Origin: a virus | Reading direction: 5' to 3' (one strand) | DNA: 36,082 nt | Virus record (IMG/VR): IMGVR_UViG_3300028025_000899 | Span: 1 to 36,082 of that record | Part shown: positions 905-36,039 of the stretch, piece after piece | Layout: each line of letters starts with the position of its first letter | Position numbering within the stretch: position 1 is the first letter of the stretch | Translations under genes and position numbers: made by a program | Notes under the pieces: model-generated | What the model saw: the letters and a program-made list of their open reading frames with translations, nothing else | Database searches by the model: none | What the model was told of the DNA's origin: nothing

Positions 905-1188
905 AACATAGAGATTTTTTAAATCAACACATCAATAATTATGAAACTGCTCAAAGTGGTTTTCTTAGGAATCTAGATTTAGGTATTATGAAAATGTATG
1001 AGCATATATATAGAACATACATAGACCCTAATTTTATTTTGACTATTTGGTGCGGCAATTGTAGAATGGATATGGTATTAAGACTATATAAGTACTATGA
1101 TAAAGTATTAGATGAAGATTTAAATATGATACAAAAAGAAATTTTAGAACCCAAAAAGCGTGGTCGCAAACCAAAGACAAATGGCTAA
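895..1188 (+). CDS. Conserved phage hypothetical with AT-hook-like tail
   Basis: A 97-residue protein starting 10 bp inside the previous gene. The centre holds WCGNCRMDMVLRLYKYYD, a CxxC followed by a helical amphipathic stretch. The last 12 residues (KKRGRKPKTNG) form a KRGRKPK run of the AT-hook type, which binds the minor groove of AT-rich DNA. I recognise the overall pattern from Bacteroidota phages but not its function. DNA binding is inferred only from the basic tail. Confidence 0.7.
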   Translation: MELEHRDFLNQHINNYETAQSGFLRNLDLGIMKMYEHIYRTYIDPNFILTIWCGNCRMDMVLRLYKYYDKVLDEDLNMIQKEILEPKKRGRKPKTNG

Positions 1189-1663
1189 TTATATACACCC
1201 AACCGCAATAATAGGAGACAATGTTGTACTAGGAGACAACAATTACATAGGTGCTTATTGTATTATAGGAGACCCTGCGGAACATAAAAAATATTGGGAT
1301 AAGCCAAAAGGCAAAGTTATTATAGGAAATAATAATATTATTACAGGATTAGTTACAATAGATGCAGGTACTGAAGATATTACTTATATTCAGGATAATT
1401 GTTTTATAATGAAACACGCACACATAGGACACGATTGTACAATTTTTAATAATGTTACAATAAGTTGTGGTGCAAAGATTGGTGGACATTCTATTATAGA
1501 AGAAAATTCAAACATAGGATTAAACGCAGTATTGCATCAGTACACACATATTGAAGAAGGTTGTATGATTGGAGCAAGTGCATTTATAAAAGGTAAGACA
1601 GAACCATTTACAAAATATGCAGGAGTTCCTGCAAGAAAATTAGGAGAAAATAAACCTAGATGA
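1181..1663 (+). CDS. LpxA-like hexapeptide-repeat acyltransferase
   Basis: A 160-residue protein taken from the ATG at 1181, which overlaps the previous stop by 8 bp; a GTG at 1160 is possible but less likely. It is built of hexapeptide repeats: IHPTAIIGDNVVLGDNNYIG, then VIIGNNNIITGLVTID, then AHIGHDCTIFNNVTIS and GGHSIIEENSNIG. The first block is very like LpxA (UDP-GlcNAc O-acyltransferase), including the catalytic-type His in MKHAHIGHDC (HIGHD). The protein is shorter than LpxA (about 260 residues) and lacks its C-terminal helical domain. It heads a sugar cassette with the next two genes, so an acyl or acetyl transfer to a sugar is likely. The substrate is unknown. Confidence 0.85.
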   Translation: MANYIHPTAIIGDNVVLGDNNYIGAYCIIGDPAEHKKYWDKPKGKVIIGNNNIITGLVTIDAGTEDITYIQDNCFIMKHAHIGHDCTIFNNVTISCGAKIGGHSIIEENSNIGLNAVLHQYTHIEEGCMIGASAFIKGKTEPFTKYAGVPARKLGENKPR

Positions 1664-2241
1664 ACGCAGTAATATATTTAAACTATCAAAATAGAAACAT
1701 TGAAACTTTGTTTCATAACATTAAAAATGCAGGTAAGCATATAGACTTAATTAGCATTATAGATGAAACAGGCATAGCTTATGCAATCAATAAAGGATTG
1801 ATGCAATTAAACAATTTTGATTATGTTACGATTATGGGCAATGATATACTAGAGCCTGATAATTGGTTGGTAACTAGAAATCAATTTATGCAGGATAAAA
1901 CGATTGGCATATGCTCAATTCCTTTAGATGGCTTCAATGGTGATTCATTAGATTTGATTGGTAATTTTACAATATCAAAAGAAACAATAAATAGACTAGG
2001 CGCATTTAATGAAGAATTAGACCCATATGGAGCAATAGACTTAGACTACTGTACTAGATGCAGGGCATCAGGATTACATACAAAGTTCATCCCATTGACT
2101 AAAGCTACCCATATTGAACAGAATGGTAGTGATGCTTATGGATATAACAAAATGGATTTAGTTAAAAAGACTTGGGATTTGCATAATAAAAATGTATCTG
2201 ATTATTCAAATGGAACTAAAGCATATTATATTCCTTTATGA
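1660..2241 (+). CDS. GT2-like (GT-A fold) glycosyltransferase
   Basis: A 193-residue protein starting 4 bp before the previous stop (ATGA). It has the GT2 layout: an N-terminal beta-strand (MNAVIYLNYQN), YAINKGL near 41-47 where family members keep xxNxG, and MGNDILEPDNW at 59-69 in the place of the DxD nucleotide-sugar/metal site. IDLDYCTRCRASG then resembles the ED-D motif region. It is shorter than bacterial GT2 enzymes. The acyltransferase and a second glycosyltransferase flank it in an overlapping run. It probably glycosylates a host surface polymer, a virion protein or DNA; the acceptor cannot be told from sequence. Confidence 0.8.
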   Translation: MNAVIYLNYQNRNIETLFHNIKNAGKHIDLISIIDETGIAYAINKGLMQLNNFDYVTIMGNDILEPDNWLVTRNQFMQDKTIGICSIPLDGFNGDSLDLIGNFTISKETINRLGAFNEELDPYGAIDLDYCTRCRASGLHTKFIPLTKATHIEQNGSDAYGYNKMDLVKKTWDLHNKNVSDYSNGTKAYYIPL

Positions 2242-3233
2242 GAATACTAGCAATTACAAACAAATTTAGTGGGGTTGGTTATCATAGAATAATGATGCCA
2301 TTAGTAAATATGCGCAAAGACTATTGTTTGATAACAGATACAATCAATGAGGCAGTATTTGATAATAACTATGACATAGTTTTATTTAATAGATTTTTAG
2401 CTTCAACAGATGCTAAACTATTAGTGAAGATGAAGATAAAATATAACTTCAAACTAATAGTAGATAATGATGACTATTGGATTTTACCACCTTCGCACGT
2501 TCTTGCACAAAGATACAGGGATAGTAATATTACAGAAATCATTACAGAGTATATGAGGGTTGCAGACCTTTGCACCTGTACGCACGAAAGACTAGCTGAA
2601 GAAATATATAAGTTTAATTCTAATGTAGAAATAATTCCTAATGCTTTACCATATGGTGAAGAACAGTTTCAAGATGATAAAATAGAATCTGATTTGGTTA
2701 GGTTGTTTTGGGCAGGTTCAGGTACTCACGTTCCTGATTTAGACATTCTTAGGAATCCAATGAAGAAGATTAATTTTCCTATACGAACAGTCATTGCAGG
2801 TTATAATCTAGGGGAAAAGCATTTGTGGGATAGAATGATTGCGGTGTTCACAAACGGATTAAAACTGAACCCAACTATCTATGACTATGCAGAAATAAGT
2901 AAATATATGGGTGCTTATGCTGATTCTGACATTAGTATAATACCATTGGTAGAAAATAAGTTCGGTGCTATGAAATCAAACCTGAAAGTATTAGAGACTG
3001 CAGCAAAGAAGAATCCTGCAATAGTTAGCAACGTACATCCTTATAAGGATATGCCTGTATGCTATGTAAACAATCAACAGGATTGGTACAAATGGATTAA
3101 GCTACTGACCTTTGATGAAGCAGCTAGGATTGAATATGGACAGAAGCTATTTGATTACTGCAATACCAACTTTAACCTGCACACCATAAATAATAAAAGA
3201 TTTGCTATTTATAATAAATTAATAGGGAAATGA
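2238..3233 (+). CDS. GT-B fold glycosyltransferase (GT1/GT4-like)
   Basis: A 331-residue protein overlapping the previous gene by 4 bp. It begins MRILAITNKFSGVGYHRIMMPL, the usual first strand and glycine loop of GT-B enzymes. KLIVDNDDYW and the later VADLCTCTHERLAEEI and IIPNALPYGEEQF mark the domain boundary. LFWAGSGTHVPDLDIL opens the C-terminal nucleotide-binding domain. DISIIPLVENKFGAMKSNLKVLETAA holds the Lys/Glu-containing donor site typical of GT4. It pairs with the GT2-like gene. Sugar donor and acceptor are unknown. Confidence 0.85.
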   Translation: MRILAITNKFSGVGYHRIMMPLVNMRKDYCLITDTINEAVFDNNYDIVLFNRFLASTDAKLLVKMKIKYNFKLIVDNDDYWILPPSHVLAQRYRDSNITEIITEYMRVADLCTCTHERLAEEIYKFNSNVEIIPNALPYGEEQFQDDKIESDLVRLFWAGSGTHVPDLDILRNPMKKINFPIRTVIAGYNLGEKHLWDRMIAVFTNGLKLNPTIYDYAEISKYMGAYADSDISIIPLVENKFGAMKSNLKVLETAAKKNPAIVSNVHPYKDMPVCYVNNQQDWYKWIKLLTFDEAARIEYGQKLFDYCNTNFNLHTINNKRFAIYNKLIGK

Positions 3234-3757
3234 TGACTTTTACAGAATTAGATACAAAAGGTAGGCTTAGGTCTAAAGCTAAATTCTTATGTGAAAAATG
3301 TAATTGTGAAACTATTCAAAGAATAGAAGAAGTAAAAAGAAGGGGTTACTTATGTAAAAGTTGCAAATTAAAAGAAAATAGCATTAAAGAGTTTAAATAT
3401 AAAGATATAGAATTGACCTGTGCTAATATATTGAAGTCTAGGATGAATAAAAGATATATTAAAAGAGGATTAAATTGTACTTTAACAGGTGTAGAAATAT
3501 TGAATTTAGTTAAGTCTAAATGCCATTATTGTGGTGATTTATCTAGTAATGCTTTTATATATAAACAACCAAATTTTGAATATATATTTTATTATAATGG
3601 TATTGATAGGATTGATAGTTCAAAAGGATATATTAAAGGCAATGTTTTAACTTGTTGTAAAACTTGCAATGTTTCAAAAATGGATATGAATTATGAAAAA
3701 TTCATTGAGCATATTAGTAAAATATATAAAAATTTAATAGAAGATGCCAATATATAA
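3230..3757 (+). CDS. HNH endonuclease with N-terminal zinc-binding motif
   Basis: A 175-residue protein. Residues 21-45 carry CEKCNC and CKSC, a zinc-ribbon-like pair. The C-terminal half is an HNH-type nuclease: CHYCG near residue 98, NGIDRIDSSKGY, then GNVLTCCKTCNVSKMDM with the second Cys pair. This resembles free-standing phage HNH enzymes, often mobile, that act as DNA nicking or cutting enzymes. It starts 4 bp before the previous stop and overlaps the next gene by 14 bp, so it is built into the operon rather than obviously inserted. Two starts (3230, 3233) are possible. Confidence 0.85.
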   Translation: MMTFTELDTKGRLRSKAKFLCEKCNCETIQRIEEVKRRGYLCKSCKLKENSIKEFKYKDIELTCANILKSRMNKRYIKRGLNCTLTGVEILNLVKSKCHYCGDLSSNAFIYKQPNFEYIFYYNGIDRIDSSKGYIKGNVLTCCKTCNVSKMDMNYEKFIEHISKIYKNLIEDANI

Positions 3758-4166
3758 ATGTGAATCTAATGGTAAGTACAGAATAGGTACAGGTAGTTGC
3801 ATATATGACACAGAAGAAAAAGCTGCTAAAGTATGGGCAGCAATTATAGCTAGTGGTAAATATGAAGAAACTTATAATGACTATCCTGAATCAGCTAGTA
3901 ACAATGCAAAGAGGGCATTAAAATGGGCAGATGAAAATGGTTGGGGTGAATGTGGAACTGCAGTAGGTAAAGCTAGGGCAAACCAATTAGCGAATAAAGA
4001 AAACATATCTAGGGATACCATAGCTAGGATGGCATCATTCAAAAGGCATCAACAAAGTAAAGATGTACCATACTCTGAAGGATGTGGTGGGTTAATGTGG
4101 GATGCTTGGGGTGGTACTTCAGGCATTGAATGGGCAATAAATAAGCTAAAGCAAATAGATAAGTAA
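3744..4166 (+). CDS. Conserved phage protein, ASNNAKRAL / GCGGLMWDAWGG type
   Basis: A 140-residue protein with two parts. Residues 1-40 (YKCESNGKYRIGTGSCIYDTEEKA) form a short segment that I associate with N-termini of several Bacteroidota phage proteins. Residues about 47-135 contain YPESASNNAKRALKW, GTAVGKARANQLAN, TIARMASFKRHQ and EGCGGLMWDAWGG, a strongly conserved phage domain that I recall from larger head-associated or protease-associated proteins. Its biochemical role is not known to me. It lies just upstream of the packaging genes. Confidence 0.7.
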   Translation: MPIYKCESNGKYRIGTGSCIYDTEEKAAKVWAAIIASGKYEETYNDYPESASNNAKRALKWADENGWGECGTAVGKARANQLANKENISRDTIARMASFKRHQQSKDVPYSEGCGGLMWDAWGGTSGIEWAINKLKQIDK

Positions 4167-4348
4167 TGGAATACCATATTCAATTTGGCAGATTCAGAAT
4201 ATCATTAGGGGTATTAACAGAAACAATACAACTAGGTATTTCAATAGGATATTCAGTAGATGAATTCGCACAATTACATAAGAGTTTAAACATAGGATTT
4301 GTATTCGTATCTTTAAACTTTATAATAATGAATGAAGAAACACACTAA
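4166..4348 (+). CDS. Small hypothetical protein
   Basis: A 60-residue open frame whose ATG shares a base with the previous TAA and whose end overlaps the HNH gene by 17 bp. The sequence is rich in hydrophobic residues (FRISLGVLTETIQLGISIGY and NIGFVFVSLNFIIM) without a clear membrane span or motif. The tight fit between its neighbours is the main reason to keep it. No function recognised. Confidence 0.5.
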   Translation: MEYHIQFGRFRISLGVLTETIQLGISIGYSVDEFAQLHKSLNIGFVFVSLNFIIMNEETH

Positions 4349-4589
4349 ACTATATTTAGATTATTTTGGATATGGCATAGAAGATTTTATCCCTTGTGAA
4401 TCCTGTGGTGCAAAGGCAGTTGACATACACCATATAGAAGCAAGGGGAATGGGCGGTGATAAAAAGGCAGACAATATAAATAATCTGATGGCACTATGTA
4501 GGCAATGTCATTTAGTTATGGGGGATACTAAGACACATATGGAATATTTAAAAAGCAAACATAAAGAGAAATTAAATGGCAAAAGGTAA
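4332..4589 (+). CDS. Small HNH endonuclease next to terminase
   Basis: An 85-residue HNH protein. It has CESCG at 22-26, VDIHHIEARGMGG with the HH pair at 33-34, NNLMALC with the central Asn, and CRQCH at 56-60. This is the compact HNH type encoded beside terminase genes in many phages, where it assists or stimulates genome cleavage during packaging (as for HK97 gp74). The position about 500 bp before the terminase small subunit supports that role, as inference. Confidence 0.88.
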   Translation: MKKHTKLYLDYFGYGIEDFIPCESCGAKAVDIHHIEARGMGGDKKADNINNLMALCRQCHLVMGDTKTHMEYLKSKHKEKLNGKR

Positions 4590-4698
4590 AAGCGATTCAT
4601 CAAAAGTTTCATTTGGTAAGCGCAAAAGAGGACAGGCAAAAAAGTCTTATAACAAACATACACCCAAACCAAAACCATCAAGGGGACAAGGCAAATGA
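4576..4698 (+). CDS. Small highly basic protein (40 aa)
   Basis: A 40-codon frame beginning with ATG inside the end of the HNH gene and ending at TGA 4696-4698, where the next gene's ATG overlaps (ATGA). It is extremely basic and polar: MAKGKSDSSKVSFGKRKRGQ at the start and KHTPKPKPSRGQGK at the end. Small basic proteins of this kind with a PKPKP-RGQG tail occur in Bacteroidota phages near packaging genes. DNA or RNA binding is plausible from charge alone. The double overlap with neighbours favours a real gene. Confidence 0.7.
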   Translation: MAKGKSDSSKVSFGKRKRGQAKKSYNKHTPKPKPSRGQGK

Positions 4699-5048
4699 TA
4701 ATACTACCTGCACAAATAGAAGGATTAACATCTAGAAAGGATAAAACCATTAAAGTTACCTTTGGCACACAGGAACTATCCCCTGTTGATGCTGCACAGG
4801 TATTTCAATTAAATCAAAGATTCTGTTACATAGCTATCAAAGAAGAATCATTTCAACAGGATGAATTAGATAATCTAGATAGTATTAAGACAGACCTAGA
4901 ATCAAACAAGACCCCATCACAAAGATTGAGGGGTATTTTATATATAAACTATCAACAGAGCAACGAAGGATACAAAGATTTTACAACTTACTACATAGCA
5001 AAGATGGAATTACTTTGTGAGCATTTTAAATCTAAATTAGATAAATAA
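4695..5048 (+). CDS. Conserved hypothetical phage protein
   Basis: A 117-residue protein starting at an ATGA overlap. The N-terminus (MIILPAQIEGLTSRKDKTIKVTFGTQELSP) reads as a beta-rich strand pattern. The rest is helical, with SKTDLESNKTPSQRLRG-like spacing and a C-terminal amphipathic helix (KMELLCEHFKSKLDK). This family is common just before terminase genes in Bacteroidota phages and may bind DNA. I know no function for it. Confidence 0.7.
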   Translation: MIILPAQIEGLTSRKDKTIKVTFGTQELSPVDAAQVFQLNQRFCYIAIKEESFQQDELDNLDSIKTDLESNKTPSQRLRGILYINYQQSNEGYKDFTTYYIAKMELLCEHFKSKLDK

Positions 5049-7063: not shown

Positions 7064-7993
7064 ATGAAACACGCAAGTTTATTCTCAGGAATAGGAGGAT
7101 TTGATTTAGCTGCTGAATGGGCAGGTTGGGAAAACGTATTTCATTGTGAATGGAATAAATTCGGTCAACAAGTTCTTAAATATCATTTTCCAAATTCAAT
7201 TAGTTACAATGACATCACAAAAACAGACTTTAAAGTACATGCAAATGAGATTGACATTCTCACAGGAGGATTCCCTTGCCAACCATACTCACAGGCAGGT
7301 AAAAGACTTGGAAAAACCGATGAAAGACATCTCTTTCCTGAAATGCTTAGATGCATTAAAGAAGTCAAACCAAGATGGATTATTGGCGAAAACGTTCGTG
7401 GACTTATTAGTTGGAATGAAGGGTTGGTATTCAACGAAGTGCACGATGACTTGGAAAGGGAAGGTTATGAAGTCCAATCGTTTCTTATTCCTGCTGCAGG
7501 TGTCAACGCACCGCATCAAAGATACAGAGTTTGGTTTGTTGCCTACTCCAACAACAAGGAACGATGCAGGAAGGTCAACGACAATAGAGAATGGGAAAGT
7601 ATTGAACAAAAGTCATACAACAGGCACAGTTTATGGAATAACATTAGGTCAATTATTAAAGGCAGGGATGTTGCCAACACCGAGTGCATTCGACTACAAC
7701 ACAGCTCAAAGACAAGACAAATATCAGGAGAGGAAACAAATGCAAATGGACAAGGGAGTGAATCTACATTACCCATTAAAACAAATGGTAATGGATATAA
7801 ATCCCAATGGGAAAACTTCCCAACTGTCAGTCCAATTTGTGGAGGAGATGATGGGATTTCCGAAGGATTGGACAAAATTACCTTTTCTAAATGGAGAAAA
7901 GAATCAATAAAAGCATATGGAAACGCTATAGTTCCACAGGTAGCATACCAAATATTTCAGGCTATTAATGAGTTTGAAATGCAAAATATTTAA
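7064..7993 (+). CDS. dcm: DNA cytosine-5 methyltransferase
   Basis: A 309-residue enzyme from the ATG at 7064. The C5-methyltransferase motifs occur in order: motif I LFSGIGGFDLAAEWAG (6-21, S-adenosylmethionine site), motif IV GGFPCQPYSQAG with catalytic Cys72, motif VI ENVRGL (109-114), motif VIII QRYRVW (152-157), and motif IX-X ESIKAYGNAIVPQVAYQIF (281-299). The region between 160 and 270 is the target-recognition domain. No restriction enzyme is nearby, so it likely protects phage DNA from host restriction. The same DNA is open in the +1 frame for 254 codons (see the separate entry). Base use is somewhat less AT-rich than in neighbouring genes, suggesting recent acquisition. Confidence 0.95.
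   Translation: MKHASLFSGIGGFDLAAEWAGWENVFHCEWNKFGQQVLKYHFPNSISYNDITKTDFKVHANEIDILTGGFPCQPYSQAGKRLGKTDERHLFPEMLRCIKEVKPRWIIGENVRGLISWNEGLVFNEVHDDLEREGYEVQSFLIPAAGVNAPHQRYRVWFVAYSNNKERCRKVNDNREWESIEQKSYNRHSLWNNIRSIIKGRDVANTECIRLQHSSKTRQISGEETNANGQGSESTLPIKTNGNGYKSQWENFPTVSPICGGDDGISEGLDKITFSKWRKESIKAYGNAIVPQVAYQIFQAINEFEMQNI
7146..7910 (+). CDS. Nested +1-frame reading frame inside the methyltransferase gene
   Basis: A 254-codon frame, +1 relative to the methyltransferase, from ATG 7146 to TAA 7908-7910. It has segments resembling parts of phage C5-methyltransferase-associated proteins as I remember them: GWYSTKCTMTWK and SNRFLFLLQVSTHR, two LLPTP motifs (GLLPTPTTRNDAG, GMLPTPSAFDYNT), and QLSVQFVEEMMGFPKDWTKL near the end. 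The main frame is nonetheless complete. Possible explanations: an overprinted second protein, the relic of a frame switch between two methyltransferase lineages, or an alternative C-terminus reached by frameshifting. Antisense frames here are also partly open, so chance openness cannot be excluded. Confidence 0.45.
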   Translation: MNGINSVNKFLNIIFQIQLVTMTSQKQTLKYMQMRLTFSQEDSLANHTHRQVKDLEKPMKDISFLKCLDALKKSNQDGLLAKTFVDLLVGMKGWYSTKCTMTWKGKVMKSNRFLFLLQVSTHRIKDTEFGLLPTPTTRNDAGRSTTIENGKVLNKSHTTGTVYGITLGQLLKAGMLPTPSAFDYNTAQRQDKYQERKQMQMDKGVNLHYPLKQMVMDINPNGKTSQLSVQFVEEMMGFPKDWTKLPFLNGEKNQ

Positions 7994-35598: not shown

Positions 35599-35749
35599 GT
35601 ACACTTACTGTGGTAGTGTAAAATATTGCTACACAATTAACTTTTTTGACTGTTTTCCAACTAGGCAGGATGCCATTGATGGCACTAATAGACTTAAATT
35701 TAAAAAACAATTTTATGATTTACTATGGACATATCGGCTAACGACCTAA
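35567..35749 (+). CDS. Small hypothetical protein with non-ATG start
   Basis: An open frame of about 60 codons without an ATG; possible TTG starts are at 35567 and 35579. The body reads RVFQVKYTYCGSVKYCYTIN, FFDCFPTRQDAIDGTNRLKF, KKQFYDLLWTYRLTT, a short alpha/beta pattern with three Cys. It overlaps the previous gene by 32 bp (or 20) and the next by 25 bp. The compact amino acid pattern looks real; the start is uncertain. Confidence 0.5.
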   Translation: MSNTLRVFQVKYTYCGSVKYCYTINFFDCFPTRQDAIDGTNRLKFKKQFYDLLWTYRLTT

Positions 35750-36039
35750 CTAAATGGGCAAAGAAAAATTTAGAATATATTGGATATAGACTTAACAGAG
35801 TAAACAATATACCATACGGAAAACGTAAAGGAACTATCCAAAAAGGATGGGCAGACCTGCAAGGTTATACATCTGAAGGAAGATATGTTGCAGTAGAAGT
35901 TAAAAAAATAGGAGACAAATTAAGTCTTGAACAAAAAGAAAGATTAGAAGATATTCATAATTGTCAGGGATTAGTATATATTTGTACTGAAAAAGATAAT
36001 CAGCCTGTACTAATTGAATGGACAAAAATAAAATTATAG
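35725..36039 (+). CDS. VRR-NUC nuclease
   Basis: A 104-residue single-domain VRR-NUC protein. Motifs: YRLNRVNNIPYGKRKGTIQK, GWADLQGY with active-site Asp at about 44, then VAVEVKK with Glu and Lys (the D-E-x-K set), and SLEQKERLEDIHNCQG. Related free-standing phage enzymes are nucleases that may resolve DNA junctions. It is the last gene of the replication block; its end overlaps the sigma-like gene (ATG at 36018). A variant fragment lies at 1-207. Confidence 0.92.
   Translation: MDISANDLTKWAKKNLEYIGYRLNRVNNIPYGKRKGTIQKGWADLQGYTSEGRYVAVEVKKIGDKLSLEQKERLEDIHNCQGLVYICTEKDNQPVLIEWTKIKL

Follow-up and report, generated by a model that had tools for sequence, protein, structure and literature searches.

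The gene at positions 7,064 to 7,993 of the 36,082-nucleotide stretch analysed here (the window, positions 1 to 36,082 of IMG/VR virus record IMGVR_UViG_3300028025_000899) very probably encodes a single two-subunit C5-cytosine methyltransferase in two overlapping reading frames, with a catalytic alpha subunit in frame 0 and a nested beta subunit in the +1 frame which would carry motif IX and the recognition region. Judged by sequence comparison, the two genes are an overprinted pair, both frames being open beyond chance and both being under purifying selection. In the proposed arrangement, alpha, with motifs I-VIII and the helix of motif X, would bind AdoMet and act as the catalytic large domain, while its frame-0 stretch over the variable region would be a disordered passenger, with no small domain. 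Beta would be translated from an internal ATG at 7209 and would supply motif IX together with a recognition region containing LPTP modules, which may select the target, and the two proteins would assemble into an active heterodimer. Phage methyltransferases usually serve to protect against host restriction, and by the same token the enzyme might methylate the phage DNA and let it evade host restriction. No restriction gene was recognised next to the methyltransferase among those neighbouring ORFs that were searched. The features concerned are as follows.

7064..7993, plus strand: alpha, the large subunit, a putative C5-cytosine methyltransferase of 309 aa with motifs I-VIII and X (PF00145, M.HhaI, AF2 model)
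7265..7291, plus strand: alpha motif IV, GGFPCQPYS, with the catalytic Cys72 at 7277-7279 (invariant in alignment A4)
7388..7396, plus strand: alpha motif VI, ENV, residues 109-111 (invariant in A4)
7511..7543, plus strand: alpha motif VIII, PHQRYRVWFVA (H151, R153 and R155 invariant in A4)
7916..7966, plus strand: alpha motif X, YGNAIVPQVAYQIFQAI, past the beta stop (G286, N287 and A288 invariant; helix with pLDDT of about 95)
7146..7910, plus strand: +1 ORF with a GTG start, 254 codons, the portion before 7209 probably untranslated (+1 stops in relatives)
7209..7910, plus strand: beta, the proposed small subunit, +1 frame, 233 aa, ATG at 7209 (conserved +1 ATG, phrog_1008, +1-frame constraint)
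7536..7550, plus strand: beta LPTP box 1, LLPTP
7559..7828, plus strand: variable region, disordered in the alpha model, with probable target-recognition modules in beta (codon-position pattern, alpha model)
7668..7682, plus strand: beta LPTP box 2, MLPTP
7824..7874, plus strand: beta motif IX, LSVQFVEEMMGFPKDWT (MGFP..WT invariant in alignment A3; best beta-profile site on single-chain C5 methyltransferases)

In profile searches alpha matches PF00145 with an E value of 5.4e-50, the match ending at profile position 226 of 324, as well as TIGR00675 and phrog_363, and a sequence search among solved structures finds M.HhaI (8e-23). Motif I, motif IV (PCQ), motif VI (ENV), motif VIII and motif X are all present in the chain. 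The original prediction had credited frame 7064 with all C5-methyltransferase motifs, which holds for I, IV with Cys72, VI, VIII and X and fails for motif IX, located in the +1 frame. Neither the alpha alignment nor the profile places motif IX in frame 0, and alpha's own chain has no recognition domain, residues 201-262 being disordered in the AF2 model (pLDDT below 50). When compared with single-chain enzymes, the alpha profile aligns over motifs I-VIII (4e-42) and again at motif X and passes over motif IX. The AF2 model has high confidence for the motif X helix and for most of residues 1-165, can be superposed on the large domain of M.HhaI over 165 columns (Foldseek 1.5e-15) and contains no small domain; the alignments used for structure prediction left out rows from annotated phage records. 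Alpha is homologous to the large domain of the single-chain enzymes M.HhaI and M.HaeIII, which differ from it in that one polypeptide carries every motif as well as the recognition domain. Two minus-strand ORFs, 7289-7609 and 7543-7875, also lie over the alpha gene.

No stop interrupts the +1 frame between 7110 and the one that ends at 7910, a span that includes the 254 codons from the GTG at 7146, as originally described. The +1 product matches phrog_1008, "DNA methyltransferase" (E 2.8e-20, residues 25-245), which bears out the suggestion that this frame reads like other phage methyltransferases; it has no match in profile searches of Pfam or NCBIfam, and the beta profile finds none among PDB sequences. 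A tblastn search with the +1 product returned 15 phage records, the best with 36% identity (E 7e-21), and the betas of Paenibacillus, Streptomyces, Mycobacterium, Salmonella and Pseudomonas phages match phrog_1008 too, although the family record is silent on members nested in another methyltransferase gene. MGFP..WT is invariant across the 57 betas of A3, and the beta profile aligns best with single-chain enzymes at motif IX (NGKTSQLSVQFVEEMMGFPKDWT with the stretch ending LTVREYARIQTFPDDW), with a weak score (E 0.009) at the expected place. The reading of one segment as CGGDDGIS in one frame and VEEMMGFP in the other was correct, with the coordinates (7838-7861 and 7839-7862) shifted by 2-3 bases from those first given. 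Since motif IX is missing from frame 0 and present in the +1 frame, the pair looks like two subunits of one enzyme. The AF2 model of beta alone is of low confidence (pLDDT 58), and such a poor fold of the lone chain would fit a subunit with an obligate partner, without being proof of it.

M.EaeI is a close system alongside M.EcoHK31I, and in enzymes of the M.EcoHK31I type, which have YGGCCR specificity, both polypeptides are needed for activity. Lee, Kam and Shaw are said to have described in 1995 that the small ORF of EcoHK31I lies inside the large ORF in another frame, which would be a likeness to the nested ORFs of the window. M.EcoHK31I consists of a large polypeptide with motifs I-VIII and X, in which the recognition domain is predicted, and a small one with motif IX (PMC3404938). 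Alpha, with I-VIII and X and without IX, matches its large subunit, and beta, like its small subunit, carries IX (weak profile score, MGFP..WT invariant). The constrained variable region, however, is in beta here, whereas the recognition domain is predicted in the large subunit there, and M.EcoHK31I belongs to a restriction-modification system, whereas the gene described here is a phage gene next to terminase. We do not claim EcoHK31I membership, since the two are likened by the published motif split only and the recognition domain is placed differently. In another two-polypeptide C5 methyltransferase, M.AquI, alpha has motifs I-VIII and beta has IX-X (PMC3404938); the window differs from it in having motif X in alpha. 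The M.AquI division is found in overlapping ORFs of the actinophages Vash (Streptomyces) and Darrell (Mycobacterium), where the alpha frame stops after motif VIII, beta contains IX and X, and both ORFs are annotated as methylases. Rhodococcus phage ReT1v-2 (L216, about 1000-2170) shows a division unlike that of the window, with motifs I-VIII, IX and X in frame 0 and the LPTP region alone, with several boxes, in the +1 frame. Frame switching between methyltransferase lineages, which had been raised as one origin of the overlap, is partially supported by these other splits of IX and X. With just 4 bases from one start codon to the other, the overlap is almost complete in Salmonella phage S9-5 and Pseudomonas phage phPA-G. 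Of 5,426 complete E. coli genomes, 4 (H81-H84) also have the S9-5 version (L214), with one "DNA cytosine methyltransferase" annotated beneath the match.

IMG/VR was scanned separately with alpha alone and with the +1 product alone, which gave about 100 loci, nearly all of them encoding both frames, the second +1 relative to the first; 37 loci found by alpha alone show the same +1 overlap, so the pairing is no selection effect. Of 93 distinct viral homologues, nearly all have an open +1 frame of about 170-410 codons, which begins no later than alpha codon 60 and ends about 20-30 codons short of the alpha stop. The open length rises with alpha length (250-475 aa), and the longest +2 open stretch is usually 23-60 codons. 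The viral exceptions are L045 (an 11-G run) and L001 (near codon 39), which change frame, L047, which ends at a contig edge, and L031 and L039, with one extra stop each. One phage contig has tandem alpha/beta overlapping methyltransferase genes (L098, 494-1777, and L099, 2419-3327).

A search with the beta alignment against 84,980 bacterial and archaeal species found 65 loci, all with alpha and beta in the +1 overlap and a few with additional frame breaks. Most are from Bacteroidota, and the others are from Bacillota and from Dehalococcoidales, Spirochaetales, Burkholderiaceae and Parcubacteria MAGs and a Heimdallarchaeota MAG fragment, where the taxonomy of the contigs may reflect binning errors. 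The alpha/beta segments of five loci in bacterial genomes (L131, L158, L161, L169 and L205) switch frame midway, and these may be decaying prophages, assembly errors or natural frame switches. In Bacteroides contigs L152-L155 (alpha at about 3750-5000), alpha contains three TGA codons with beta open, two of the three lying exactly at conserved Trp positions (AE*MGW, FSR*R), so either TGA is read as Trp in the prophage or alpha alone is decaying; no tRNA gene was present in the 8.5-9 kb examined. Among Pseudomonadota, 38 of 398 genomes have a profile match, about 20 of these being clean betas, each over an alpha, and the weaker matches, with stops inside and located in single-chain methyltransferases, serve as negative controls. 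With a proteobacterial beta as the query, 124 phage records were matched. Within the genomes searched, phages and prophages from many bacterial phyla have kept the two-frame reading.

It is improbable that beta is a real overprinted protein with some other function, for example anti-restriction or regulatory, and no enzyme subunit. The missing Pfam and PDB sequence matches would agree with such a role, but motif IX is in beta exactly where alpha is without it, the same frame in other phages carries motif X too, and beta has never been seen apart from alpha, either at the 65 genome loci or at the roughly 25 loci from Pseudomonadota. For beta as the small subunit, the position of the start codon was examined in 62 representatives with less than 85% identity, in which synonymous codons were shuffled within each alpha for comparison. 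Stops in the +1 frame of relatives occur at alpha codon indices 9, 14, 37, 45 and 50, with almost none after index 53. A +1 ATG at index 43-60 is present in all 62 representatives (shuffles: mean 39.9, maximum 51), and in 50 of them at index 46-49 (shuffles: mean 29.4, maximum 37). A few +1 ATGs sit ahead of the index-50 stop, so the first usable start in those sequences is later. A Shine-Dalgarno-like sequence accompanies the beta start in 17 of 24 non-Bacteroidota members against 9.2 expected, L156 (AGGAGGACTTTTATG) and L110 (GGAGGGATATACGAGATG) being clear cases.

The conserved +1 start and the Shine-Dalgarno excess favour internal initiation over programmed frameshifting, which would join the N-terminal part of alpha to the C-terminal part of beta and so place motifs I-VIII, the recognition region and motif IX in a single chain. 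The uniting of IX with I-VIII is a point for frameshifting, as is L045, in which the 11-G run (2020-2032), a phase-variable tract or a sequencing error, fuses the N-terminal part of alpha in frame with beta. We regard it as very unlikely all the same, because its product would be without motif X, though X is conserved downstream in frame 0, because the +1 ATG is conserved, and because Shine-Dalgarno sequences precede the beta starts in Firmicutes-type members. The frameshift-made variant of the original prediction thus received no positive support, given the conserved start, L045 being an in-frame fusion in one contig.

Both frames of the proposed pair carry marks of selection. In the 62 diverged homologues, 7 stops were observed in the +1 frame and 372 were expected under the shuffles, whereas the +2 frame has 1012 stops against 1072 expected. 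Chance or codon bias as the origin of the +1 ORF is ruled out by the synonymous shuffles and the single-chain controls. The +1 residue identity, taken from pairs with less than 55% alpha identity, is 0.316 against 0.229 in shuffles for the motif IV-VIII stretch (z 36), 0.185 against 0.112 for the variable region (z 34) and 0.597 against 0.257 for motif IX (z 51), compared with 0.27 against 0.25 before the overlap and 0.26 against 0.23 after it (z about 5); the z values overstate the signal and are not probabilities, and more weight belongs to the effect sizes and the stop counts, since the +2 control is also above shuffles, less strongly (z up to 28; motif IX 0.416 against 0.214), because it shares bases with the +1 codons in sequences that are themselves related. 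Conservation of the +1 frame at motif IX even exceeds that of alpha (0.597 against 0.512).

For pairs that share 80-97% identity in alpha, differences at third codon positions were set against those at first positions. This ratio is 8.7 ahead of the overlap and 10.5 beyond the beta stop, whereas inside the overlap it falls to 1.84 across motifs IV-VIII, 0.34 across the variable region and 0.32 at motif IX, which means that alpha dominates the first half of the overlap and the +1 frame dominates from the variable region through motif IX. Rates pooled from 19 non-overlapping pairs are less extreme for the variable region (0.28, 0.19 and 0.19), and single pairs diverging with the +1 pattern have 38/10/4, 9/1/0 and 10/3/1 differences at positions 1/2/3. 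Overprinting, as suggested in the original prediction, is therefore strongly supported by the +1 openness in relatives, the shuffles and the codon-position ratios. The codon-position check proposed there gave the +1 pattern over the variable region and motif IX and the alpha pattern outside, and instead of a product with no protein matches and a frame with scattered stops, we found the phrog_1008 match and a frame open in almost all relatives.

A +1 frame that merely survives from an ancestral reading and is now untranslated is highly improbable, for although the frame division varies among lineages, as might be expected of a relic, purifying selection on the +1 frame still acts between sequences 75-98% identical in alpha. 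It is hardly credible that the open frame and the family resemblance are by-products of alpha conservation and codon use, as the weak +1 similarity near motif IV in some single-chain methyltransferases (matches with stops) might suggest, given the stop deficit, the +1-type codon-position pattern where alpha is least conserved and the stops that close the +1 frame in single-chain enzymes.

In the two-subunit reading, which we prefer, the LPTP boxes of beta are proposed as recognition modules. Each beta has 0-4 boxes with a spacing of about 40 residues, their number following beta length (r 0.83), and the average is 1.8 per protein against 0.11 in shuffled sequence. L013 and L018 have largely different variable regions (53/45/60 differences at positions 1/2/3 of 108 codons) and a near-identical flank (5/2/11 of 113 codons), and L046 and L062 likewise have largely different variable regions, with 113 flanking codons without any difference. 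Such swapped regions between near-identical flanks are as expected if recombination exchanges recognition modules.

More tentatively, the pair may represent a large class of phage and prophage methyltransferases with catalytic and recognition subunits in two frames, in which the +1 frame holds repeated, swappable LPTP modules, each about 40 residues long, and the handover of motifs IX and X between the frames has moved repeatedly. The catalytic frame could tolerate module gain, loss and exchange because its reading there would be a disordered passenger, and the locus offers a natural test of a catalytic frame tolerating the evolution of specificity in the other frame. To our knowledge, bacteria and their phages rarely have long same-strand gene overlaps in which both products are of known function. 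Here the double coding extends over about 700 bases and is conserved across many phyla, and the two products fill in for each other's missing motif. The apparently new points are how widely the overlap occurs, the evidence for a recognition region in beta made of repeated exchangeable modules and the lineages that split the motifs differently, and no paper describing this widespread overlap was found in the open-licence literature. In the annotated phage records examined, frequently a single ORF of the pair carries a name, which leaves "incomplete" methyltransferases and unexplained beta relatives in the databases, and phage methylation is not predictable from alpha alone.

Further genes in the window include a hexapeptide-repeat transferase and two proteins without a Pfam match at 1160-3233, upstream of terminase; the latter two resemble glycosyltransferases by eye and would be an unusual cargo beside packaging genes. 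A protein with a VRR-NUC nuclease domain is encoded at 35725-36039, and in Bacteroides phage BKO1-TP3 a VRR-NUC gene is located two genes upstream of the methyltransferase.
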